Assembly (NCBI RefSeq): GCF_030817835.1 | Contig: NZ_JAUSZR010000001.1 | Location: 496,001-560,000, forward strand | Source: Pseudarthrobacter sp. W1I19 | GTDB taxonomy: Bacteria > Actinomycetota > Actinomycetes > Actinomycetales > Micrococcaceae | Length of the DNA stretch: 64,000 nucleotides | Direction: 5' to 3' | Part shown: positions 8,218-36,712 of the stretch, piece after piece | Layout: every line of letters begins with the position of its first letter | How positions within the stretch are numbered: the stretch's first letter is position 1 | Made by a program: the position numbers and the translations under genes | Notes under the pieces: model-generated | What the model was told of the DNA's origin: nothing | Database searches by the model: none | What the model saw: only the letters and a program-made list of their open reading frames with translations

Positions 8218-8415
8218 TTAGACGGAGGCCAGTGCCCGGTCCTCGCCGCGGACGCTCAACGTGAACGTGTTGGGCCCGCTGCAGGTGACAGCAATGCGGC
8301 ACGTGGTGGTGTTGTGGCGGGCCGAGAGGTCACTCACCGCGGCGTCAAGCGTGTGGTGGAGGGCTGACCGGTCCCAGATCTTGAGGGTCACGGAGTCATT
8401 GGCATCGAACGTCAT
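8218..8415 (-). CDS. Small conserved hypothetical protein
   Basis: This 65-residue protein starts MTFDANDSVTLKIWDRSALH and ends with a beta-rich segment FTLSVRGEDRAL. It has GGAAG seven bases before the ATG and normal codon use. There is no signal peptide or membrane segment. It lies convergent to trxB behind the shared terminator. Similar short proteins seem familiar from Arthrobacter genomes, but I know no function. Confidence 0.6.
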   Translation of the reverse strand: MTFDANDSVTLKIWDRSALHHTLDAAVSDLSARHNTTTCRIAVTCSGPNTFTLSVRGEDRALASV

Positions 8416-8721: not shown

Positions 8722-9504
8722 CTATTCGTCGAAGTAGGTATCGATCTGCTTCTCGCCCGAAATGGAAGCGATGACGGCCGCTGCCACGTCCCGCAGCTTG
8801 ATATTGCGTGTGCTGGAGGCCTTGGTGAGGATTTTGAAGGCCGCGTCCCGGCTGCACCTGTTTTCGGCCATGATGGCGCCGATGGCCATGTCAATCACCG
8901 TGCGGGACTGCATGGCGACTGCGAGGTCATTCCGGGCTTCGTTGAGTTGGGCGATGCGAAGAACCAGGCGCAGCGAAGTCGCCGCCTGGTTGGCGAACGC
9001 TTCCGCCGTGGAAATGTCCTCGTCCGTGAATCCGTTGCTGCAGCCGGAATACAAGTTCATCACGGCCTCGGCCTCACCGGCCAGGTCCAGCGGCACGGCA
9101 AGGATGGATGAGACACCGTTCTCCTGGGCGGCCTTGGTGTAGTGGGCCCAGCGGCGCTCTGCGGCCAGATCAGGAACCAGGAGCGTGGTTCGGTTCCGGA
9201 GGGCGGTCAGGCAGGGGCCGTCCCTGTACCCGTTTTGCAATTCGTCCAAGGCACGGGCTGCCGCGTCGCTGCTGGCCACAACTTGGGGCCTCTTGCGCCG
9301 CATGACCGTCACGCCGCTGTGGATCCGGTTGCCCGGGGAGGACAGCCGGGCAGCGGCAATCAGCGCCAGATCGGTAAGGAAGCCGGCCACATCCTTGCTG
9401 TTCAGGACCAGTTCCTTCAGCCGCGTCTCCACGTCCGGGACGGGAACCGGGGCCGCCTGCGGCACGATGCTGAAGTTTCCGGCGCCGGACTCCTGGTTGG
9501 TCAT
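8722..9504 (-). CDS. GAF-ANTAR domain regulator (last gene of the GAF-ANTAR operon)
   Basis: The 260-residue cytoplasmic regulator has a GAF sensory domain at about residues 25-170, with the typical DGPCLTALRN segment and GVSSILAVPLDL. An ANTAR domain follows at about 195-250 (SRTVIDMAIGAIMAENRCSRDAAFKIL, shown in parts: SRTVIDMAIGAIMAEN and NRCSRDAAF). ANTAR domains bind paired RNA hairpins and prevent transcription termination (known from AmiR, NasR and EutV). The C-terminus ends DTYFDE, a tail shared with three other GAF-ANTAR proteins in the window. The ATG overlaps the stop of the 83-residue gene (TATGA), so translation is coupled. The ligand and target RNAs are unknown. Confidence 0.9.
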   Translation of the reverse strand: MTNQESGAGNFSIVPQAAPVPVPDVETRLKELVLNSKDVAGFLTDLALIAAARLSSPGNRIHSGVTVMRRKRPQVVASSDAAARALDELQNGYRDGPCLTALRNRTTLLVPDLAAERRWAHYTKAAQENGVSSILAVPLDLAGEAEAVMNLYSGCSNGFTDEDISTAEAFANQAATSLRLVLRIAQLNEARNDLAVAMQSRTVIDMAIGAIMAENRCSRDAAFKILTKASSTRNIKLRDVAAAVIASISGEKQIDTYFDE

Positions 9505-9752
9505 AGCGATTCGCCTTCCAACAGTTCCGTCATGGCCATGGCGATCAAGGCAACCTGACCCGACGGGATGTCAAGTGCCTCATGAAGATAGGCGTCCAGT
9601 GACATCTCGTCGATTCCGCCGCCCAGCCCGTAGTAATAGGTCCACAATTTGGCCAGCGGAAGGTCGGTCTTCCGGAAACGCTCCGCTGTGCCCCGCCGTA
9701 CTTCGGCGGCAAAATCCGATCCTTCGGGACCATCGGCTCCGTAGGGATACAT
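9501..9752 (-). CDS. Small unrecognised protein paired with GAF-ANTAR genes (divergent member)
   Basis: This 83-residue protein is the most diverged of three related small proteins in the operon. Shared features are LWTYYYGLGG near residue 36, DAYLHEALDIPSGQ and a helical end AMAMTELLEG. The family pattern is LW..Y(F/Y)...G......(D/E)AY(L/I)......(L/I)P..Q..L.A...EL. There is no signal or membrane segment; it is probably an all-helical cytoplasmic protein. It begins 2 bases after the upstream GAF-ANTAR stop and overlaps the downstream GAF-ANTAR start by 4 bases. Such tight coupling suggests roughly stoichiometric production with the regulators. I know no function; a partner or ligand-relay role is a guess. 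Confidence 0.8.
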   Translation of the reverse strand: MYPYGADGPEGSDFAAEVRRGTAERFRKTDLPLAKLWTYYYGLGGGIDEMSLDAYLHEALDIPSGQVALIAMAMTELLEGESL

Positions 9753-9754
9753 TT

Positions 9755-10495
9755 CTATTCTCCGTCCCCCTCTGTTCCGGGAAGTCCGGCTCCGTGCACG
9801 ATGTCAGTGGCGATGTCGTGCATTCGGCGGTTGGTTGACTTGGCGGCCAGTTGCAGGATCTGCAGGGCATCTTCACGGCCGCCATGCTGCTGGAGCATGA
9901 TCAGGGAGACGGCCGCGTCCACCACTGCCCGCGACCTCAGGGCGGCGCGAAGGTGCTCTGGATGCGCGTCAGTTCCGTGCAGCCGCAGGGCGATTCTCAG
10001 GACACGCGACATGGCGGCGGCGTGCTCTTCGAGAAGCCCCACTGTCTCCTCATTGAAGGTGCCCGCCGTGCCTGCATAGCAGTTCAATCCGGCATGCGAG
10101 AAGGGGTCAGTGGGGATGGGTACGGCCAGCACGGAGCGAACGCCCTCCTGGAGGGCAGCCTCCAAGTAATCGCTCCAGCGTTCGTCGTTTTCCAGGTCCG
10201 CAATCAACACCAGGCGCTGCTGCCGTGCGGCAGTCAGGCATGGTCCGTCGCCGAACGAGTACTGCGTTTCATCCAGCCGGCGGCCCTCATCGCTGCTGCT
10301 GGCAACCGTTGCAGCTCCTCCGCCGCGTTCCACTGTGATGGTGCAGGTGACAGTGCCATCGGATCCCAGAAGCGAGGCGGAGATCGTGGCCAGGCCAAGG
10401 AGGAACTCGGGGAACCCGGGGCTTTCGAGGAGCAGATCCTGCATCCGGTCCAAAGTGGTAAATCTGCTGTCCTGGGCCATGGGCCCTCGATCCAT
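9755..10495 (-). CDS. GAF-ANTAR domain regulator
   Basis: The 246-residue regulator has a GAF domain around residues 25-165 (FGDGPCLTAARQQRLVL and GVRSVLAVPIPTDPF) and an ANTAR domain around 185-235 (SRAVVDAAVSLIMLQQHGGRED). The ANTAR sequence differs from its neighbours: the usual AxGxIM is AVSLIM. The start is uncertain. The ATG at 10495 has AGGGCG 6 bases upstream, an ATG at 10480 has GAGGG, and the frame also extends to a TTG at 10564. It is the third regulator of the minus-strand operon and lacks the FDE-type tail. Its partner small gene starts 2 bases downstream. Confidence 0.87.
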   Translation of the reverse strand: MDRGPMAQDSRFTTLDRMQDLLLESPGFPEFLLGLATISASLLGSDGTVTCTITVERGGGAATVASSSDEGRRLDETQYSFGDGPCLTAARQQRLVLIADLENDERWSDYLEAALQEGVRSVLAVPIPTDPFSHAGLNCYAGTAGTFNEETVGLLEEHAAAMSRVLRIALRLHGTDAHPEHLRAALRSRAVVDAAVSLIMLQQHGGREDALQILQLAAKSTNRRMHDIATDIVHGAGLPGTEGDGE

Positions 10496-10648
10496 AGGTG
10501 CGCCCTGGGCAGTTGCCCCTGGCTGGCGGCCTCCGCTCTCTACGCGGCGGACCTGTGCATTCAACCCCTGGATCTGATGGGTATCCCGAAATCTCCTAGT
10601 ACCGACACTACGCCGGTACCGGACCTATTGATATGCCCGGTCCTTGAT

Positions 10649-10981
10649 CTACTCGTCCGGTTCCGCCTGCCGGCCGATGCCATCTTCCCGGATCTCCGAT
10701 GCGGCAGGGGCAGGACCCGGACCGCCGTCGAAATCGTCAGAATACGGCGCGCGGGGCCGGGGGAGATCGTCAATCAGCTCATTGGCCGCCAGCGCCAGCA
10801 GGTCGCGCTGCACGGGCGGCAGCGACAGCAGCCCCTGCAGGTAGGCCTCCACCTCGTACTCGCCGGCGTCTCCGGACATCCCAAAATACTTCAGCCACAG
10901 CTCGGATATGGAGATGCCGGCGGCCCTCATGGCCGAACGGAGCCTGCGCCGTTGTTCCGGTTCATTAGGATCGAAACCCAT
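10649..10981 (-). CDS. Small unrecognised protein paired with GAF-ANTAR genes
   Basis: The 110-residue protein starts MGFDPNEPEQRRRLR. Its conserved core is SELWLKYFGMSGDAGEYEVE, followed by AYLQGLLSLPP.QRDLLALAANELIDDLPRPRAPY in the same order as its 96-residue paralog. The C-terminal 30 residues are acidic and Pro/Gly-rich and probably unstructured. It begins 9 bases after the stop of a GAF-ANTAR gene. The near identity of its core to the 96-residue protein, together with the similarity of the two adjoining GAF-ANTAR genes, points to duplication of a two-gene module. Function unknown. Confidence 0.82.
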   Translation of the reverse strand: MGFDPNEPEQRRRLRSAMRAAGISISELWLKYFGMSGDAGEYEVEAYLQGLLSLPPVQRDLLALAANELIDDLPRPRAPYSDDFDGGPGPAPAASEIREDGIGRQAEPDE

Positions 10982-10990
10982 GGGTACGGC

Positions 10991-11710
10991 CTACGATCCG
11001 GATGCCGGCGTCCCGGCCAGGACTCGTGCGCTGATGTCCTGCAGTGCTGTGTTTTCGTCGCGGGCATGCCTGATCAGCCACTGCAGCGCTGCTTCATGGG
11101 TCAGGCCCATACGCTCCATCAGCACGCCGCAGGCCCGGTTCACAAGGTCGCGGGTGTACAGGGAGGCCTGCAGGCCCTCGGTCATTTTGTGGGGTGCCTC
11201 GCTGGCCTGGATGTGCGAAAGCAGCGTGGCGGCCGGCGCTGCAAAAAGTTGCAGCAGGGTGGTGCTGGACTCGTTATAGGTGTTGGGCTCCGCGGCATAC
11301 AACTTCAGTGCGCCGATGGTCTCTTTGCCCGCGATGAGGGGAGCGCTGACAACCGAACGCACGGGCAGCCCTGCCACCGCCCTGCGCCAGTCCGGCCAGC
11401 GGGTTTCAGCCCGGATATCCTCGAGCAGCACGGGCTTTTCCGTGGCCCAGGCGGTCAGGCACGGACCCTCCCCGCGCTCGTATTGTGTAGCGTCGGCCTC
11501 GGCCACAATCCTGTCGGTGTACCCGCTGCTGGTCCGGCGTCCACGGGCATCCATGAGGGACACTCCCGCTCCGATGGTGCCCGGAACCGACTCTTTGGCC
11601 GCTTGGGCAAGGAGCCGGACTGCCGTGTTCACCTTTTCCTCGGTGAGCAGCAGCCCCTGGATGCGAGCGATCACCGTGCTGAGCTCGTCAAGGGGAAGTT
11701 GCTGCGCCAT
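10991..11710 (-). CDS. GAF-ANTAR domain regulator (QQLPLDEL type)
   Basis: The 239-residue protein opens MAQQLPLDELSTVIARIQGL, nearly the same as its upstream paralog. The GAF domain contains YERGEGPCLTAWATEKPVL and LPVRSVVSAPLIAG. The ANTAR domain contains TRDLVNRACGVLMERMGLT and ends LQDISARVLAG. I chose the ATG at 11710; a longer frame to 11755 adds an unlikely basic stretch. It sits between two small-protein genes, with about 160 bases upstream to the previous gene, where a copy of a dispersed 14-mer occurs. It therefore may have its own promoter as well as read-through. Confidence 0.9.
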   Translation of the reverse strand: MAQQLPLDELSTVIARIQGLLLTEEKVNTAVRLLAQAAKESVPGTIGAGVSLMDARGRRTSSGYTDRIVAEADATQYERGEGPCLTAWATEKPVLLEDIRAETRWPDWRRAVAGLPVRSVVSAPLIAGKETIGALKLYAAEPNTYNESSTTLLQLFAAPAATLLSHIQASEAPHKMTEGLQASLYTRDLVNRACGVLMERMGLTHEAALQWLIRHARDENTALQDISARVLAGTPASGS

Positions 11711-11782
11711 AGTTCCAGCATAGGGCCAAGGCCTTCCTGCCGTCCCTCGGCTCACAGGGAGGCTGCTTCGGTTCAGAAGGAT

Positions 11783-11796
11783 GTACGACGGCGGGA
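11783..11796 (+). repeat. Copy of dispersed 14-mer GTACGACGGCGGGA
   Basis: The 14-mer is identical to one arm of the hairpin at 17275-17304 and to the reverse complement at 25433-25446. Here only one arm is present, so it is not itself a hairpin. It lies in the gap between a small-protein gene and a GAF-ANTAR start. Confidence 0.7.
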
Positions 11797-11870
11797 GGGC
11801 GCCGCGGTGCGCTCGTTCAGGCGATCAGCCTGGGCTGGCATTCGGCGGGCTCCCAGCGATGCGGCTCCTT

Positions 11871-12161
11871 TTATTGGATGAGGTCCTGCAGGTACGGTGC
11901 CCGGGGCAGTGGCGGCAGCTCGTCGATCAATTCATTTGCAGCATGCGCCAGCAGGTCGCGCTGGCCCGGCGGCAGGGAAAACAGCGACTGGATGTAGGCG
12001 TCTACTTCGTATTCACCCACAGTTCCTCCAATGCTGAAGTAGCGGAGCCACAGATCTCCATGCCTGAGGCCGGAGCCCTGCAGGGCTTTGCGCAGGAGCC
12101 GGCTTTGCTCCTGTTCAAGACCCGCCGAGGAGTCGGGGCCGCTCATTTCATGGTCCGTCAT
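11871..12161 (-). CDS. Small unrecognised protein paired with GAF-ANTAR genes
   Basis: The 96-residue protein has the conserved core GDLWLRYFSIGGTVGEYEVD, then AYIQSLFSLPPGQRDLLAHA and ANELIDELPPLPRAPY. It aligns without gaps through the core with the 110-residue paralog and more weakly with the 83-residue one. Predicted all-helical, acidic, cytoplasmic. The ATG overlaps the end of the upstream GAF-ANTAR gene by 14 bases, so the two are translationally coupled. This is the first small gene of the operon. Function unknown. Confidence 0.82.
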   Translation of the reverse strand: MTDHEMSGPDSSAGLEQEQSRLLRKALQGSGLRHGDLWLRYFSIGGTVGEYEVDAYIQSLFSLPPGQRDLLAHAANELIDELPPLPRAPYLQDLIQ

Positions 12162-12876
12162 CAGGGGTTCTCTTGGTTCCGGTGAGGATCTCGGTGCTGA
12201 TGTTCAAGAGTGACTGCCTGCTGGCCTTGGAGAGCTCCACGAGCTGCTGAAGGGCCGTGGCCTGGTCAAGGCCGTGCAGGTGCATCAGGAAGCCTTGGGC
12301 GCGGTTGATGGTATCCCGGCTGTTCAGGGCAGAGGCCAGGACCTGGGTGAAGCGTTGCGGAGCATCAGCGCTCTGGATGTTGTCCAGCAGCGTCGCTGCG
12401 GGGACCACGAGTTTTTCCAGTGGCCGGGCAGTGGCAGCGTCGTACGCGCCGGGCTGGGTTGAATAGATTTTCAGAGCCCCGAGGCAACGCGTGCCAGCCA
12501 CTAACGGTGCGCTGATGACTGACCGGATGGCGAGGTCCTTTACCGCTTGGGACCACAACGGCCAGCGGTCTTCGGAGCGGACATCGTGGATCACCACTGT
12601 GCGTTCGGTGGCCCAGGCAGTGATACATGGACCTTCGCCGAGCTCGTATTGGGCCGCGTCTGCCTCCAGGACAAGGCCATCTGTGGCGCCGGTACTGGTT
12701 CTGTTTCCCTGTTCGTCCATGAGCGAGACTCCCGTACCCGAACTGCTGGGAAAGGCATCCCGGATACCTTCGGCCAGCAGTTGGACAGCGCGATCCACCT
12801 TCTCCTCGGTCAGGAGCAGGCCGTTGATGCGGGACATTGCGAGAGTGAGTTCATCCAGGGGGAGCTGCTGTGGCAT
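12148..12876 (-). CDS. GAF-ANTAR domain regulator (first gene of the alternating operon)
   Basis: The 242-residue protein opens MPQQLPLDELTLAMSRINGL. GAF motifs are YELGEGPCITAWATERTVV and LAIRSVISAPLVAG. The ANTAR domain includes SRDTINRAQGFLMHLHGLD and LLNISTEILTG. It closely resembles the 10991-11710 protein over its full length. The ATG at 12876 has GAAGG about 9 bases upstream. It is divergent from the plus-strand GAF-ANTAR gene at 13126, with about 250 bases between, so promoters for both directions should lie there. Confidence 0.9.
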   Translation of the reverse strand: MPQQLPLDELTLAMSRINGLLLTEEKVDRAVQLLAEGIRDAFPSSSGTGVSLMDEQGNRTSTGATDGLVLEADAAQYELGEGPCITAWATERTVVIHDVRSEDRWPLWSQAVKDLAIRSVISAPLVAGTRCLGALKIYSTQPGAYDAATARPLEKLVVPAATLLDNIQSADAPQRFTQVLASALNSRDTINRAQGFLMHLHGLDQATALQQLVELSKASRQSLLNISTEILTGTKRTPDDGP

Positions 12877-13125
12877 GGTAGCCGACCTTCTGTGCAGGAC
12901 GAGGCTGTTCTTGGAAATGCCCCCTGCTGGGCCGGGAGCGGAAAGATTTTTCCCACTCCATAACCAGCATAACCCTCCGAGTCGTCCTCGGCGCCGGGTC
13001 AGACAACCCGGCTTGCCCCTTTACCGGTTGAATTCAATGTAGGCTGGGGAAACGTTTGGAAGTGGGCGTCTTAAGCCGCACGGGAAAAACTGGATGTGGC
13101 TGAAAGCTCGACTTCAGGAAGTGCC
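12877..13125. promoter_or_regulatory. Divergent promoter region between two GAF-ANTAR units
   Basis: About 250 non-coding bases separate the divergent starts at 12876 and 13126. No clear paired hairpins or terminator could be picked out by eye. The region is the natural place to look for autoregulation of the array. Confidence 0.45.
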
Positions 13126-13917
13126 ATGGACGCTTTGCCCCACACCGCCGACGCTTTGCCGAGGGCTGCAGACGGTTACACCGCTCTCGCCGTCATGCAG
13201 GACGGCATCATTTCCCGCCTCCAGGACCTCGTCCTGCAGGCCGACGACGCCCAGGACTTTTTCCAGGAACTCGCCGTTTTCTCGGCTTCCCTCCTGGCCC
13301 CCGCCGGGGGAGAGGTGCATTGCAACGTGACGGTGGCGCGCCGGAAGCGGCCCGTCTCTATCGCCTCCAGTACACCCAGGGCGCGTGTCATGGACGACCT
13401 GCAGTACGCATTCGGCGACGGACCATGCCTTACTGCCATGCGCACAGGAAAGACCACGTACGTTGCGGATGTGGCAGAGGAACAGCGCTGGCCGGAATAT
13501 GTGCAGGCAGTCTCGGCCCACGGCGTCGGTTCAATTCTGGGCGTGCCCCTGCACCTTGAGGGAGATTCCTCGGCCGCTTTGAACATCTACTCAACGGCAG
13601 TGCATGGATTCTCCCCGGAGGACATCGCACGTGCGGAGTTGTTCGGCGAGCAGTCCGCCAAGACGCTGCGGCTTGAACTGCGCCTCGCCCAGTTGAGGGA
13701 TGCCAAGGAGGATCTGGAGGCCGCGATGAAATCGCGGACGGCCATCGATATTGCTGTCGGCGTGATCATGGCACAGAACCGTTGCAGCCAGGAATCAGCG
13801 ATGGCCATCCTCAGGAAGGCGTCCAACAGCCGCAACATCAAGCTGCGGGACGTAGCGGCAGGCATCATCGAATCAGTTTCGCCGGATTCCGCCCTGCGTA
13901 CGCATTTCGACGAGTGA
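13126..13917 (+). CDS. GAF-ANTAR domain regulator (NRCSQ type)
   Basis: The 263-residue protein has a GAF domain (FGDGPCLTAMRTGKTTYV, GVGSILGVPLHLEGD) and an ANTAR domain (SRTAIDIAVGVIMAQNRCSQ, then RNIKLRDVAAGIIESV). It ends LRTHFDE, the tail shared with the 8722, 15114 and 35080 proteins. The ATG at 13126 has AGGAAG five bases upstream; a GTG ten codons earlier is possible but weaker. It stands at the head of a plus-strand group with the small genes that follow. Cytoplasmic; ligand and RNA target unknown. Confidence 0.9.
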   Translation: MDALPHTADALPRAADGYTALAVMQDGIISRLQDLVLQADDAQDFFQELAVFSASLLAPAGGEVHCNVTVARRKRPVSIASSTPRARVMDDLQYAFGDGPCLTAMRTGKTTYVADVAEEQRWPEYVQAVSAHGVGSILGVPLHLEGDSSAALNIYSTAVHGFSPEDIARAELFGEQSAKTLRLELRLAQLRDAKEDLEAAMKSRTAIDIAVGVIMAQNRCSQESAMAILRKASNSRNIKLRDVAAGIIESVSPDSALRTHFDE

Positions 13918-14002: not shown

Positions 14003-14398
14003 ATGCAGCCTTCCAAAACAGCAAAACTGCAAGGAACCTTCTACATCATCAACGGCTTGTGGCCGCTCGTCCATATGCGCAGCTTCGAGGCCGTGAGCGG
14101 ACCTAAGGCAGATAAATGGCTAGTGCGCACGGTATCGGGCCTGCTCATCGCCATCGGCCTTGAACAAGTGCGTGCCACCCCCGACAGGGAAAGCGCGGCC
14201 GTTGCAAGGCGACTCGGCATCGGTGCTGCCGTAACGCTCGCTGCAATTGACTTGTATTACGCCTTGAGTGGGCGCATCAGCAGGGTCTACCTGTTTGATG
14301 CCACAGTCGAGCTTTTCTGGATCCGGGCTTGGCTGGGCAAGGACTTGGCTGCCGGCAGGGGAAAAGTCCCATTGGACAGAAGCACGCAGAGTGCGTAA
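14003..14398 (+). CDS. Small membrane protein of unknown function
   Basis: The 131-residue protein reads MQPSKTAKLQGTFYIINGLW and has three or four hydrophobic stretches (WLVRTVSGLLIAIGLEQV, GIGAAVTLAAIDLYYAL, VELFWIRAWLG). It looks like a small four-helix membrane protein. The ATG at 14003 has GAGG six bases upstream; an ATG at 13970 is an alternative. It follows the GAF-ANTAR gene by 85 bases and may be co-transcribed. I cannot name the family. Confidence 0.7.
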   Translation: MQPSKTAKLQGTFYIINGLWPLVHMRSFEAVSGPKADKWLVRTVSGLLIAIGLEQVRATPDRESAAVARRLGIGAAVTLAAIDLYYALSGRISRVYLFDATVELFWIRAWLGKDLAAGRGKVPLDRSTQSA

Positions 14399-14520
14399 AT
14401 TTTTCAGTGGTAGGCGTCACATTTGTGGCGACCTGCCCTTCCGGACCTAGTGCAGGGCCTTCGGGAGTGACCGCTGTAGCACCACGGCGGATGGATGCAC
14501 ACCAGCGAAAGAGAGCCATC

Positions 14521-14778
14521 ATGGCTGCCTCGCATTTCTCACAGTTCCTTGCTGAAGCCACCGTTCCGGAATTCGATACCGACTGCCCCATGTCTGCCGA
14601 TTGCCTCTATGGGCTTTACGTCAGTTGGTGCCTGATCAACGGTCTGGAAGCCAAACCGGATGTCACCTTCCGGGCCGCGATGCACCGCGCCGGCATCGAC
14701 CTCACCGACACCAGGCTTCGGATGGTGGGCCCGGCAGCGGCCGATTACATCCTGTCCAGCTACCCTGCCGCGGCCTGA
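14521..14778 (+). CDS. Small protein of unknown function
   Basis: The 85-residue protein starts MAASHFSQFLAEATVPEFDT and contains SADCLYGLYVSWCLINGLEA and RLRMVGPAAADYILSSYP. The pattern C/E-LY..Y..W.....L.P...F..A is reminiscent of the winged-helix segment found in phage-type primases and related small regulators, but the resemblance is weak. It starts after AAAGAGAG and is followed two bases later by the next small gene. Probably a small nucleic-acid- or protein-binding protein; not identified. Confidence 0.65.
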   Translation: MAASHFSQFLAEATVPEFDTDCPMSADCLYGLYVSWCLINGLEAKPDVTFRAAMHRAGIDLTDTRLRMVGPAAADYILSSYPAAA

Positions 14779-15113: not shown

Positions 15114-15848
15114 ATGTCGAATTCACCGGACAACGAATCGGTCGCACAGCTACAAGACATCCTGGTGCGCGCCGAAGACGGAGTGGAGTTCCTGTCGGGA
15201 CTCTCGGGACTGGCAGCAGCAGCGGTTTCCGAGGCAGCAGGCGATGCCATCGAATGCGCAGTCACCGTCAAGCTGAGGCGCAGGCCCACTACCGTTGCAG
15301 GCAGCAGTGATCGTGCCATTGGGCTCGACCACATTGAGCAGGCCATCGGTGATGGCCCCTGCATGAGGGCCCTGAGGGAAATGTCACCGGTGATTATCGA
15401 CGACGTCGCCTCGGACTCCCGATGGCCCGAGCTCAACAAAAGGTTCGCGGAGGCAGGCATCTACAGTTCACTGGGCGTGCCTTTGGAAATCAGCAGCGAA
15501 GCCAGCGCCGCACTGAACTTTTTTGCCTCCAGGCCGGGCGTCTTCACCCCGAATGTCTACGACAAGGCCGTGGGCTTTGGTGCCGCTGCGCACAGCACCC
15601 TTCATCTCTCCGTCCGCATCAAAACCGCTGAGAACCGGGCGGAGGACCTTGAGGCGGCCATGGAACACAGGACGGCCATCAACCTGGCCTGCGGCGTCAT
15701 TATGGCGCAGAACAGGTGCTCGCAATCAGAAGCGATGGAGATCCTGACCAAGGTCTCCAGTAACCGCAACCGCAAGTTGCGGGACGTGGCCACGGAACTG
15801 GTTGAACAGCTGCAGGGCACCAGGGTCCAGACGCACTTCGACGCTTAG
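15114..15848 (+). CDS. GAF-ANTAR domain regulator (NRCSQ type)
   Basis: The 244-residue protein has a GAF domain (IGDGPCMRALREMSPVI and SLGVPLEISSEASAALNFF) and an ANTAR domain (HRTAINLACGVIMAQNRCSQ and NRKLRDVATELVEQL). It ends VQTHFDA, the conserved tail. It starts about 110 bases after the small-gene pair. It is the sixth GAF-ANTAR gene of the cluster and the closest relative of the 13126 protein by eye. Confidence 0.9.
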   Translation: MSNSPDNESVAQLQDILVRAEDGVEFLSGLSGLAAAAVSEAAGDAIECAVTVKLRRRPTTVAGSSDRAIGLDHIEQAIGDGPCMRALREMSPVIIDDVASDSRWPELNKRFAEAGIYSSLGVPLEISSEASAALNFFASRPGVFTPNVYDKAVGFGAAAHSTLHLSVRIKTAENRAEDLEAAMEHRTAINLACGVIMAQNRCSQSEAMEILTKVSSNRNRKLRDVATELVEQLQGTRVQTHFDA

Positions 15849-22959: not shown

Positions 22960-23061
22960 TTTCCAGCCCTCGAGCTTGAAGAGTGCCACAAGACTACGTC
23001 GCCTCCAGCAGGCAAGCCAGAGGTTGGCAGGTCATGATTTGGTGAATTCTTCTATTGACTG

Positions 23062-23095
23062 GGCGATAGTTAACGACATATCGTTAACTATCGCC
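23062..23095. promoter_or_regulatory. Perfect 15+15 bp dyad, probable PadR operator
   Basis: GGCGATAGTTAACGA (23062-23076) and its exact complement at 23081-23095 flank CATA. A TTGACT at 23055-23060 fits a -35 box, with the -10 then lying inside the dyad, so a bound repressor would block the promoter of the PadR gene. Confidence 0.8.
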
Positions 23096-23150
23096 GAAGG
23101 GCTGGCGATACTAAGAATGAGACAACATGACATGAAAGGAAGATGCCACC

Positions 23151-23789
23151 ATGAAAGGCACTTCAGAAGAGAATTTTCCCGGCCAGCAGCACGGCAGGGG
23201 CAGGTATGAACGTGGCCGTGGAAGGCGCGGACCGCACGGGCACAGGGGCGGTGGTTTCGGCCCCGGCTTCGGTCCGGGTTTCGGTCCCGGTTTTGGCGGG
23301 GGCCCCGGGCCAGGTTTTGGTCCCGGGTTCGGGCCCGGTTTTGGCCGCGGCCCGCGCAGGGCAAGCAGGGGCGATGTCCGTTCGGCCATCCTCTCGCTCC
23401 TGGCCGAAGCGCCCTCAAATGGTTACGGGTTGATCAAGGCCATTGCGGAGAAGACGGACGGCGCCTGGCGGCCAAGTCCCGGATCGATCTACCCCACCTT
23501 GCAGCAACTGGTGGATGAGGAGCTCATCAAGCCCCTCAGTGAAGGCCGCGGGACTGAGTTCTCACTCACGGATGCTGGCCGGGCCTGGGTGGAGGAGCAC
23601 GCCGAGGAGTTAGCGAACGCGTGGAACGCCGGACCTGAGAGTCCCGATCGGGACTTCCACCAGAGCATCGGGAAGCTGATGGCAGCTATCCACCAGTTCC
23701 GCAGCGGTGTCACCCAGGAACAGCGGACGGCTGCGATCGAGAAGTTGGACGAGACCCGCCGCGCGCTCTACAAGATCCTGGCGGACTAG
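23151..23789 (+). CDS. PadR-family transcriptional regulator with Gly-Pro-Phe-rich N-terminus
   Basis: The 212-residue protein begins with about 70 residues rich in His, Arg and Gly. These include seven short GPGF-type units, also visible as repeats in the DNA at 23255-23345. The winged helix follows (RSAILSLLAEAPSNGYGLIK, GSIYPTLQQLVDEELIKPLS, then FSLTDAGRAWVEEH), and a C-terminal dimerisation helix ends the protein. PadR proteins are usually autoregulating repressors; the perfect dyad at 23062-23095 supports that. No target transporter gene follows; the next gene is convergent amt. The Gly-rich extension is disordered and of unknown role. Confidence 0.9.
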   Translation: MKGTSEENFPGQQHGRGRYERGRGRRGPHGHRGGGFGPGFGPGFGPGFGGGPGPGFGPGFGPGFGRGPRRASRGDVRSAILSLLAEAPSNGYGLIKAIAEKTDGAWRPSPGSIYPTLQQLVDEELIKPLSEGRGTEFSLTDAGRAWVEEHAEELANAWNAGPESPDRDFHQSIGKLMAAIHQFRSGVTQEQRTAAIEKLDETRRALYKILAD

Positions 23790-35079: not shown

Positions 35080-35823
35080 CTATCCGTCGTAGTGAGTGCG
35101 GGCGGGGCCCTGGCCAAGGGAGTTGACCACTGAGGCTGCCACATCATGCAGCTTGGAATTGCGCGTGCTGGAGGCTGTCTTCAGGATCTCGAAGGCGTCG
35201 TGCTGGCTGCACCTGTTCTGGGCCATGATGATGCCCACCGCCATGTCGATGACGGTCCGGGATTCCAGCGTGGCCCGCAGGTTGGCGGCGGTCTCGCTGT
35301 AGTGCGCAAAGCGCACGGCAAGCCGCAGCGCGAGGGACGTCTGGCTGACGAAGTCCTCTGCAAACTCAAGAACCTGGGCCTCGAAGCGGTTTGGGCGGCT
35401 CGAATACAGCAGCAGCGCCGCTTTCGTCCCGCCCTCCAGTTGGAACGGCACGGCAAGGACGGAGCGAACGCCCTGATCCAGCAGGGAGGCCGAGTACTCG
35501 GGCCAGCGGCCGTCCTCCCGGACGTCCGGCACCGGGACGGTTGCCTGGGTGGTGGACGCTTCCATGCTGGGCGTCTGGTTGAACTCGTACTCGAGCCTGG
35601 CCACGGCCTCGGCGGCCGGACTGCTGCTGGCTACTGTGGCAGCTTTCCGTTCGCGCAGCAGGGTGATGGCGCACAGCATCTCGTCGCCGGGCTCGGAGAG
35701 CTTACGGGCGGACACCTGCGCCAGTTCGTTAAGGAAGTCCTCAACGTCAGAGCTGTTGAGGACGAGTTCATGCAGGTGCTCGGTTATGGAGTTATCGGTT
35801 TTTGCTGTTGACTCGCTGGCCAC
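35080..35823 (-). CDS. GAF-ANTAR domain regulator (NRCSQ type, outside the main cluster)
   Basis: The 247-residue protein has a GAF domain (EYEFNQTPSMEASTTQATV in place of the usual GDGPCLTA, and GVRSVLAVPFQLEGG) and an ANTAR domain (SRTVIDMAVGIIMAQNRCSQ, TRNSKLHDVAASVVNSL). It ends ARTHYDG. The replacement of the conserved DGPCL segment by TPSME suggests a changed ligand site. The start taken is the GTG at 35823; the frame runs on to 36387 over the adk gene, which is not real coding. Followed by the receiver gene. Confidence 0.88.
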   Translation of the reverse strand: MASESTAKTDNSITEHLHELVLNSSDVEDFLNELAQVSARKLSEPGDEMLCAITLLRERKAATVASSSPAAEAVARLEYEFNQTPSMEASTTQATVPVPDVREDGRWPEYSASLLDQGVRSVLAVPFQLEGGTKAALLLYSSRPNRFEAQVLEFAEDFVSQTSLALRLAVRFAHYSETAANLRATLESRTVIDMAVGIIMAQNRCSQHDAFEILKTASSTRNSKLHDVAASVVNSLGQGPARTHYDG

Positions 35824-36118
35824 GGTTTCTTGGTGCCATTCGCTCAGGTCTAAACGAGCCGGCGACACGCACCATCCACCCGAAGGGGCGGCCGGCGGCT
35901 GAAGTCGCTGGATTCGACGAACTTTCCAACGGCCTGCTGCTAAACCGATATGCAGAAGTATATACATCCCCTGCACGGAGCAAACGTCATTTGGCTTCGC
36001 TGCGAACCCGCGTGTGCTGGCGCATGAGCATGTATTGTGCGCAGAATAGGGCAGCGCCGGCGCTGCCGGCGGCCGACCCGGAAACCAGCGGTTGCTGCGC
36101 CGCGGAGGGACGTGGAAC
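35824..36118. promoter_or_regulatory. Divergent promoter region between GAF-ANTAR and adenylate kinase genes
   Basis: About 295 bases with no credible gene. An AT-rich patch around 35940-35985 (CAGAAGTATATACATCCC) is the likeliest promoter area. No strong dyad seen. Confidence 0.4.
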
Positions 36119-36712
36119 ATGACCAGATTGCTCATTATCGGCCCGCCAGGTTCCGGCAAGGGAACCCAGGCTGAACACCTGGCCCGCCACTTCGGGATCC
36201 CTGCCGTGTCCACGGGTGAAATCTTCCGCAGCAATGTCAGCAAGCAAACCGAACTGGGCAACGAAGCTGCCAAGTATCTCGACGGCGGGGATTTTGTCCC
36301 GGACCACCTCACCAACGCCCTGGTCAAGGACCGTCTCCGGGACGACGACGTCCGGGCGGGCTTCCTGTTGGACGGGTACCCGCGCACCGCGCCTCAAGTT
36401 GTGGAACTGGACAACTTCCTGGCCTCCCAGGGCGGCTCCCTCGACGCCGTCATCGAACTGCGCGCCCCGGACTCGGAACTGGAACAGCGGATGCTGCAGC
36501 GCGCCCGGAAGGAAGGCCGCCGGGACGATACCGTGGATGTGTTCCGGCGCAGGCTTGACCTCTATCACCGGGAGACCCACGAAGTGGTGTCCGTCTATGC
36601 GGGCCGGGGACTCCTGGTATCAGTCAACGGCAGCGGCGACCCGGGCGAGATCACCACACTGGCGATTGCCGCCGTCGAACGCTTCATTAACGGAAAGGAA
36701 GAACGCGCATGA
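36119..36712 (+). CDS. Adenylate kinase-like nucleoside monophosphate kinase
   Basis: The 197-residue protein has the P-loop GPPGSGKGTQAEHLA (residues 8-22), the AMP-binding STGEIFRSN and LLDGYPRTAPQV, and the LID-region RARKEGRRDDT. It is the short-LID form without zinc cysteines. The gene is not in the ribosomal-protein/secY operon where the essential adk normally lies, so it is probably a second copy or a paralog with another nucleotide preference. The stop overlaps the start of the epimerase gene (ATGA). Confidence 0.88.
   Translation: MTRLLIIGPPGSGKGTQAEHLARHFGIPAVSTGEIFRSNVSKQTELGNEAAKYLDGGDFVPDHLTNALVKDRLRDDDVRAGFLLDGYPRTAPQVVELDNFLASQGGSLDAVIELRAPDSELEQRMLQRARKEGRRDDTVDVFRRRLDLYHRETHEVVSVYAGRGLLVSVNGSGDPGEITTLAIAAVERFINGKEERA

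Follow-up and report, generated by a model that had tools for sequence, protein, structure and literature searches.

Tandem cassettes of GAF-ANTAR regulators and small acidic proteins in Pseudarthrobacter sp. W1I19, with the small proteins as candidate docking partners

The stretch of DNA analyzed here (the window) comprises 64,000 nucleotides of the genome of Pseudarthrobacter sp. W1I19, and holds at positions 8722-12876, on the minus strand, an array of 4 GAF-ANTAR regulator genes alternating with 3 genes for small acidic proteins. We infer, with about even confidence, that each small protein binds as a dedicated protein-docking partner to the GAF-ANTAR protein encoded just upstream. This proposal is based on the observed cassette of the two genes, its recurrence, the co-divergence of the partners, the existence of fused forms, the predicted fold and an acidic helix. 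A sequence-only reading of the window had described the array, close spacing at most of its junctions, and a single small-protein family without known assignment. All three descriptions were upheld: the array by gene positions and Pfam cut-offs, the spacing by 4 tight junctions among 6, including all 3 that lead from a GAF-ANTAR gene to a small gene, and the family by alignment along the whole core.

From 12876 down to 8722, the genes are ordered GA4-s3-GA3-s2-GA2-s1-GA1 (Table 1). All six GAF-ANTAR proteins of this region, including the neighbors GA5 and GA6, exceed the Pfam cut-offs for ANTAR (27.3 bits) and GAF_2 (28.6 bits), and the scores of GA1 to GA4 range from 42.7 to 60.1 bits for ANTAR and from 42.3 to 65.5 bits for GAF_2. 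The junctions from GAF-ANTAR to small genes are an overlap of 14 bases (GA4/s3), a gap of 9 (GA3/s2), and a gap of 2 (GA2/s1). In the opposite order, s1 and GA1 overlap, and the other two junctions are loose, with gaps of 84 (s2/GA2) and 115 bases (s3/GA3). The latter widens to 160 when counted to the in-frame ATG at 11710, which corresponds to the GA4 start and is the more likely first codon of GA3. Because all GA-to-small junctions are tight and 2 of the 3 small-to-GA junctions are loose, the repeat unit is a GAF-ANTAR gene followed by a small gene, and not the reverse. The array consists of 3 such cassettes in tandem plus one partner-less GAF-ANTAR gene, GA1, and the stretch between the divergent GA4 and GA5 is likely its control region. 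ANTAR genes are otherwise rare, occurring at 19 places (18 over the cut-off) in the whole 4.8-Mb genome, and the small family occupies 9 places. These counts, together with GA5, GA6, and a seventh ANTAR frame in the window (about 35083-36393, minus strand), go beyond the earlier description.

Between s2 and s3 the identity is 57%, s1 shares about 30% with either, and 18 columns are invariant across the 3 rows. No Pfam family was matched by s1-s3 at E<=0.1, and NCBIfam gave no assignment, with one sub-threshold adhesin match to s3 that scored 11.7 bits (E 0.086; cut-off 382). At E<=1e-3, 220 relatives of s3 and 46 of s1 were found. Among the matches listed (the best 120 of 220 for s3), every named relative is a 'hypothetical protein', and the organisms given are mostly Arthrobacter, Pseudarthrobacter, and Paenarthrobacter. 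The median net charge is -9 across 254 relatives, only 1 of which is positive. With a profile widened by distant members, 1080 of 8000 scored candidates were recovered, indicating a large actinobacterial family; organisms among the best 120 of the 1080 include Acidimicrobiales, Egibacteraceae, Lentzea, and Motilibacter. Two relatives in the same best 120, P0173 and P0182, bear other automatic names. No relative was confirmed among 31 stretches of viral contigs. Proteins under 75 amino acids were dropped from the seed set of the family. Including the own genome, the family scan found 18 positive genomes of 120, and the class and phylum scans found 10 of 394, 4 of 396, and 4 of 198, which are lower bounds with 11-25 candidates scored per genome. 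Two further scans, in which the own genome was not counted, found 3 of 5 and 1 of 24.

The same pair of genes recurs in other genomes. In the scan of named genomes, an ANTAR domain ends no more than 400 nucleotides upstream of the matched small gene, on the same strand, at 72 of 79 distinct loci, a sample biased to close relatives of s3. Of the remaining loci, 3 have an ANTAR within 1.5 kb; the 4 others lack one, among them L064, at the end of a contig, and L080, whose upstream GAF-ANTAR gene is truncated. When all small domains found in these loci with the first profile are considered, 96 of 109 are linked to ANTAR, at a median distance of 37.5 nucleotides. The three-cassette array is kept in L021-L023, with about 1-2 kb extra between the first and second cassettes of L021 and L023, and shorter arrays of 3 GAF-ANTAR and 2 small genes are seen in L045-L047, L050-L052, L082, and L097. 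Plasmids also carry the cassette: 9 records had a match, and in 4 of 4 examined a GAF-ANTAR gene lies directly upstream of the matched small domain. One plasmid (L220) has an additional small domain that no GAF-ANTAR gene directly precedes, and in another (L221) the small domain is divided between two frames. A broader sample was assembled from genome loci of the own, family, class, and phylum searches; in it, 33 of 84 distinct small domains stand directly behind an ANTAR gene, and 20 more have an ANTAR within 1.5 kb (one, L203, in a decayed joint frame).

Two side observations concern these loci. In the plasmid cassettes of Rhodococcus and Kocuria (L221, L222), a cold-shock protein gene is located within 1 kb of the small domain. 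Additionally, two WNZI01 contigs titled Vibrio cholerae strain 35D (L048, L079) hold Micrococcaceae-like GAF-ANTAR and small cassettes, and the title probably reflects a mislabelled or contaminated assembly.

The distances among GAF-ANTAR proteins and among their small partners are correlated with r 0.82 over 118 adjacent pairs, a set trimmed from 124 to 119 and then to 118. This value was reached in 0 of 2000 free permutations (maximum 0.22) and in 0 of 2000 within-locus permutations, which preserve the history of the species (mean 0.26, maximum 0.64; 22 loci hold at least 2 pairs). It can therefore be seen that the partners travel and diverge jointly, a pattern that fits dedicated partners. 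Also, for 101 of the 118 pairs, the partner of the nearest foreign GAF-ANTAR protein ranks among the five nearest small proteins.

In other actinobacterial families, the small domain is found at the N-terminus of larger proteins. Four of these (L102, L105, L106, L108) carry a C-terminal SpoIIE-type phosphatase domain (PF07228, 98-151 bits), and all 4 fusion genes lie directly behind a GAF-ANTAR gene. No Pfam family matches their N-terminal part at E<=10, and the nearest solved chain to the phosphatase part of L105 is Rv1364c (3ke6, E 3.7e-11). A Nocardia record holds a small-SpoIIE fusion too, in a 499-codon frame with a GAF-ANTAR gene directly upstream. Proteins joining the small domain to a GAF domain account for 17 of the 84 places in the broader sample, of which 3 immediately follow an ANTAR gene, 8 have an ANTAR within 1.5 kb, and 6 have none; the gene of such a protein in the own genome (L014) stands directly before a GAF-ANTAR gene. 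Fusion to signaling domains argues for a docking or signaling role of the small domain, and the SpoIIE fusions suggest a signaling link between ANTAR sensors and phosphatases. Candidates for a natural fusion of GAF-ANTAR with the small domain were rejected: the frame of L203/L155 is a decayed gene (L203 was kept as one 'antar' row of the 84), the 569-codon frame of L082 arises by a frame change inside the small gene, and the upstream GAF-ANTAR gene of L080 is truncated.

From these observations we infer binding, a binding site, signal relay, translational coupling, and all output in the following way. One GAF-ANTAR gene and the small gene directly behind it would form one regulatory cassette, and the small protein would be translationally coupled to its GAF-ANTAR protein, both being made together. 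It would dock on this protein, probably at the coiled-coil or ANTAR part, and once docked would relay or gate the GAF signal. In Micrococcaceae, the docking domain would act mainly in trans, as a separate small protein; in other actinobacteria, it would be present in cis on a SpoIIE-type phosphatase or GAF protein, so that the GAF-ANTAR protein would steer a phosphatase or a second sensor. Overlaps and TAGG junctions point to the coupling. The stop codon is TAG in 19 of 27 in-frame GAF-ANTAR/small pairs versus 33 of 80 stops of unpartnered genes, and G follows in 16 of the 19, so that the stop overlaps a TAGG resembling a ribosome site. At the GA3/s2 stop, this TAGG may double as the ribosome-binding site. 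Stop-codon read-through was rejected in view of this overlap. A tentative extension, doubtful as a whole, would have the type-A ANTAR switched from RNA binding to protein binding and signaling to a converted docking domain of helix-turn-helix (HTH) fold, either free in trans or in cis at the N-terminus of SpoIIE or GAF proteins. ANTAR sensors would then be tied to phosphatase or partner-switch signaling in a new actinobacterial module.

The RNA-binding side of the ANTAR proteins bears on this question. Eleven RNA contacts of EutV (R142, K143, K147, K149, E160, Y164, R168, M172, N173, R175, and R177, as given in PMC8934654) were mapped by alignment to EutV chain 6wsh. A total of 110 partnered ANTARs (93 of type A, 13 of type B, and 4 before SpoIIE fusions) were compared with 88 unpartnered ones, leaving out frames shorter than 150 codons or scoring below 20 bits, duplicates, and 5 cases that could not be classified. 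The R142 equivalent is arginine in 109 of the 110 partnered (lysine in the other) and in 86 of the 88 unpartnered proteins, and is basic in 93 of 93 of type A. A basic residue stands at the R177 position in 10 of 93 of type A, 12 of 13 of type B, 2 of the 4 that precede SpoIIE fusions, and 80 of 88 unpartnered; for K149 the corresponding counts are 33 of 93, 0 of 13, 4 of 4, and 10 of 88. The Y164 position is aromatic in 4 of 93 of type A versus 49 of 88 unpartnered, and the K143 position holds an acidic residue in 78 of 93 versus 6 of 88. Basic contact residues per ANTAR are not fewer in type A (mean 3.3 versus 2.9). A loss of ANTAR RNA binding caused by the partner was considered and rejected: the raw contrast is strong, but independent pairs in a GAF-only tree (169 proteins, 80% non-redundant, of 227) show no association between partnership and R177. 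As judged from these alignments, the type-A branch has a remodeled RNA face, a change that is not attributable to the partner.

By analogy with NasS/NasT and AmiC/AmiR, the acidic small protein could instead be an anti-antiterminator, a nucleic-acid mimic that would mask the ANTAR RNA face and be released on signal. The acidity of the 254 relatives and of s1, s2, and s3 (net -8, -10, and -7) agrees with this, as does the adjacent partner gene known for an ANTAR protein in NasS-NasT, where the ANTAR protein is gated by its neighbor's product and the two dissociate on nitrate or nitrite (PMC3795266). However, the type-A cassettes, the most frequent here with 93 of 110, are largely changed at the EutV contacts, so there is perhaps little RNA face to mask, and a phosphatase fusion is not expected for a plain inhibitor. 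We consider masking unlikely.

A multi-input regulatory network at the RNA level, as proposed in the sequence-only reading, gained no support from the window, and the contacts of type A are unlike those of EutV. No convincing ANTAR target RNA was found near the array. The Rfam search of the window gave no match. A search for pairs of hexaloops bearing A1 and G4 returned a single site, 23052-23110 (+), with a mean of 0.15 in 20 Markov sequences. The middle of this site is a perfect palindrome (CGATAGTTAACGA-CATA-TCGTTAACTATCG) flanked by repeats, and its hairpin dominates the predicted folds. Directly after it lies a gene for a PadR-like regulator at 23151-23789 (+), the family being named by sequence reading. 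The site was rejected as an ANTAR target, since an operator-like palindrome before a PadR-like gene dominates its folding; it is probably the operator of that gene.

Several findings weigh against dedicated docking. In the broader sample, 31 of 84 small domains lack an ANTAR within 1.5 kb; three genomes of a single genus (G297, G825, G862) account for 23 of these, the own genome for 5, and other places for 3. Within the own genome, 5 of 9 small-family places have no ANTAR neighbor. Therefore, the small family is wider than its link to GAF-ANTAR genes. Block duplication would give equal co-divergence, and the altered RNA-contact residues of the type-A partners are a clade effect. Moreover, complex prediction, applied to one pair as the single chain GA3-TAG-s2, gave well-folded domains and no confident interface (predicted template modelling score, pTM, 0.54); its alignment of 58 rows comprised 16 of the 19 in-frame TAG pairs (18 listed), 29 of 88 GAF-ANTAR rows, and 13 of 88 small rows. 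The dedicated partnership proposed in the sequence-only reading is supported by linkage and co-divergence, the unlinked paralogues speak in part against it, and physical interaction of the partners is putative.

It is rather unlikely, in our estimate, that no physical partnership exists at all, the genes being carried and duplicated as one cassette because of their expression, with the small protein acting elsewhere in the cell. The unlinked paralogues, the unsuccessful interface fold, and the mirrored trees that co-duplication by itself yields are in line with it. Nevertheless, further families of the class and other parts of the phylum (G522, G547) also have the pair, and the GAF-ANTAR gene retained directly upstream of all 4 small-SpoIIE fusions is not predicted by plain co-duplication.

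As a side observation on the unlinked places, the genomes G297, G825, and G862 hold 12-16 small-family places each (L167-L193), many without an ANTAR neighbor and several encoding small-GAF proteins. A fourth genome of their genus, G803, has one small-family place.

Docking on a protein is also suggested by the predicted structure of s3, a small helical fold resembling the lambda-repressor-like fold. Helix 3, the would-be DNA-reading helix, has a net charge of -3 to -2 in every one of the 71 aligned members, and for this reason we propose that the small protein binds protein rather than DNA. An XRE/Cro-type regulator of the array's own promoter would have such a fold, and the relative P0173 is automatically named DNA-binding. 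This role is nonetheless very unlikely, given the acidic helix and the absence of any Pfam HTH match among 10 small-family members at E<=10 (HMMER filters on). The weak Pfam matches of these members were PELP1_HEAT, TAF, and RHH_1, in one member each, and no HTH chain is among the 3 PDB matches of the small-family profile A4 at E<=10. The family thus differs from XRE/Cro and POU-specific domains in its helix 3, in the lack of an HTH sequence match, and in its context, which, where linked, is GAF-ANTAR, GAF, or SpoIIE. Least probable of all is a ligand-binding or ligand-relay protein loading the GAF domain, an option raised in the sequence-only reading, to which manufacture alongside the GAF protein would be suited, since no enzyme or ligand-binding family was recognised in s1-s3 (Pfam, NCBIfam) and no result here favors a ligand for a compact helical fold of about 83-110 amino acids.

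Known ANTAR systems offer partial parallels. AmiR is an ANTAR regulator gated by the product of the adjacent partner gene, AmiC, and both NasS and AmiC are large ligand-binding inhibitors resembling substrate-binding proteins. The array likewise joins an ANTAR protein to a neighboring gene product that would gate it; its small partner, in contrast, is acidic and helical rather than large and substrate-binding-protein-like, a GAF sensor is built into the ANTAR protein itself, and the cassette occurs in tandem copies. EutW-EutV and PdtaS-PdtaR are pairs of a kinase and an ANTAR response regulator. They resemble the cassette as a two-gene pair of sensor and ANTAR output, and differ from it in that the array's GAF sensor is fused to ANTAR and that the Pfam scan revealed neither a kinase nor a receiver domain in its proteins. 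RsbU is a SpoIIE-type phosphatase with its own type of N-terminal domain. The small domain is similarly the N-terminal part of such phosphatases in relatives, although in comparison with RsbU and Rv1364c it has no Pfam match in these fusions, and s1-s3 carry no phosphatase. GAF-ANTAR proteins abound in this soil bacterium, with ANTAR at 19 places of its genome. The worked-out ANTAR systems include NasR, EutV, and NasT, and a co-evolving unnamed family of over 1000 members would give GAF-ANTAR gating a direct handle. In NasR, the RNA-binding residues are hidden in cis (PMC7496416). The main text of a survey of actinobacterial ANTAR RNAs has no word beginning 'GAF' (PMC8164766). Among the matches listed from open-licence PMC papers, no title or abstract describes the GAF-ANTAR/small pair or the small family, nor is there any report of an ANTAR sensor-phosphatase link. 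A candidate partner family for a known regulator class and an unexpected putative link to phosphatases would therefore appear to be new here.

Table 1. Features of the GAF-ANTAR array and its surroundings
Feature	Position	Strand	Remarks
GA4, GAF-ANTAR regulator	12148..12876	-	first gene of array; partner s3; GAF_2 52.1, ANTAR 43.1 bits (Pfam)
s3, small acidic protein, type A	11871..12161	-	96 amino acids, net charge -7; fold model m11bbf9f9e0da
GA3, GAF-ANTAR regulator	10991..11755	-	partner s2; GAF_2 65.5, ANTAR 51.9 bits; PDB match 1s8n, putative antiterminator, E 4e-4
s2, small acidic protein, type A	10649..10981	-	110 amino acids, net charge -10; in the same frame as GA3, behind a single TAG
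GA2, GAF-ANTAR regulator	9755..10564	-	partner s1; GAF_2 42.3, ANTAR 42.7 bits
s1, small acidic protein, type B	9501..9752	-	83 amino acids, net charge -8; motif LWTYYYGLGG...SLDAYLHEAL
GA1, GAF-ANTAR regulator	8722..9504	-	no small gene behind; 4-base overlap with s1; ANTAR 60.1 bits
GA5, divergent GAF-ANTAR neighbor	13096..13917	+	no small partner; ANTAR 58.8 bits
GA6, further GAF-ANTAR neighbor	15114..15848	+	no small partner; ANTAR 60.7 bits
GA4/GA5 divergent intergenic stretch	12877..13095	.	putative control region, from gene positions

Two other small frames beside the array recur as well. A small gene at 14329-14778 (+), between GA5 and GA6 (...SADCLYGLYVSW...AADYILSSYPAAA), recurs in 8 loci, with L022 among the places named, and a similar stretch stands before the orphan small-family genes of L009 (own genome, other frame) and L058. 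A frame of 65 amino acids at 8218-8415 (-) (MTFDANDSVTLKIWDRS...) recurs in 12 loci.

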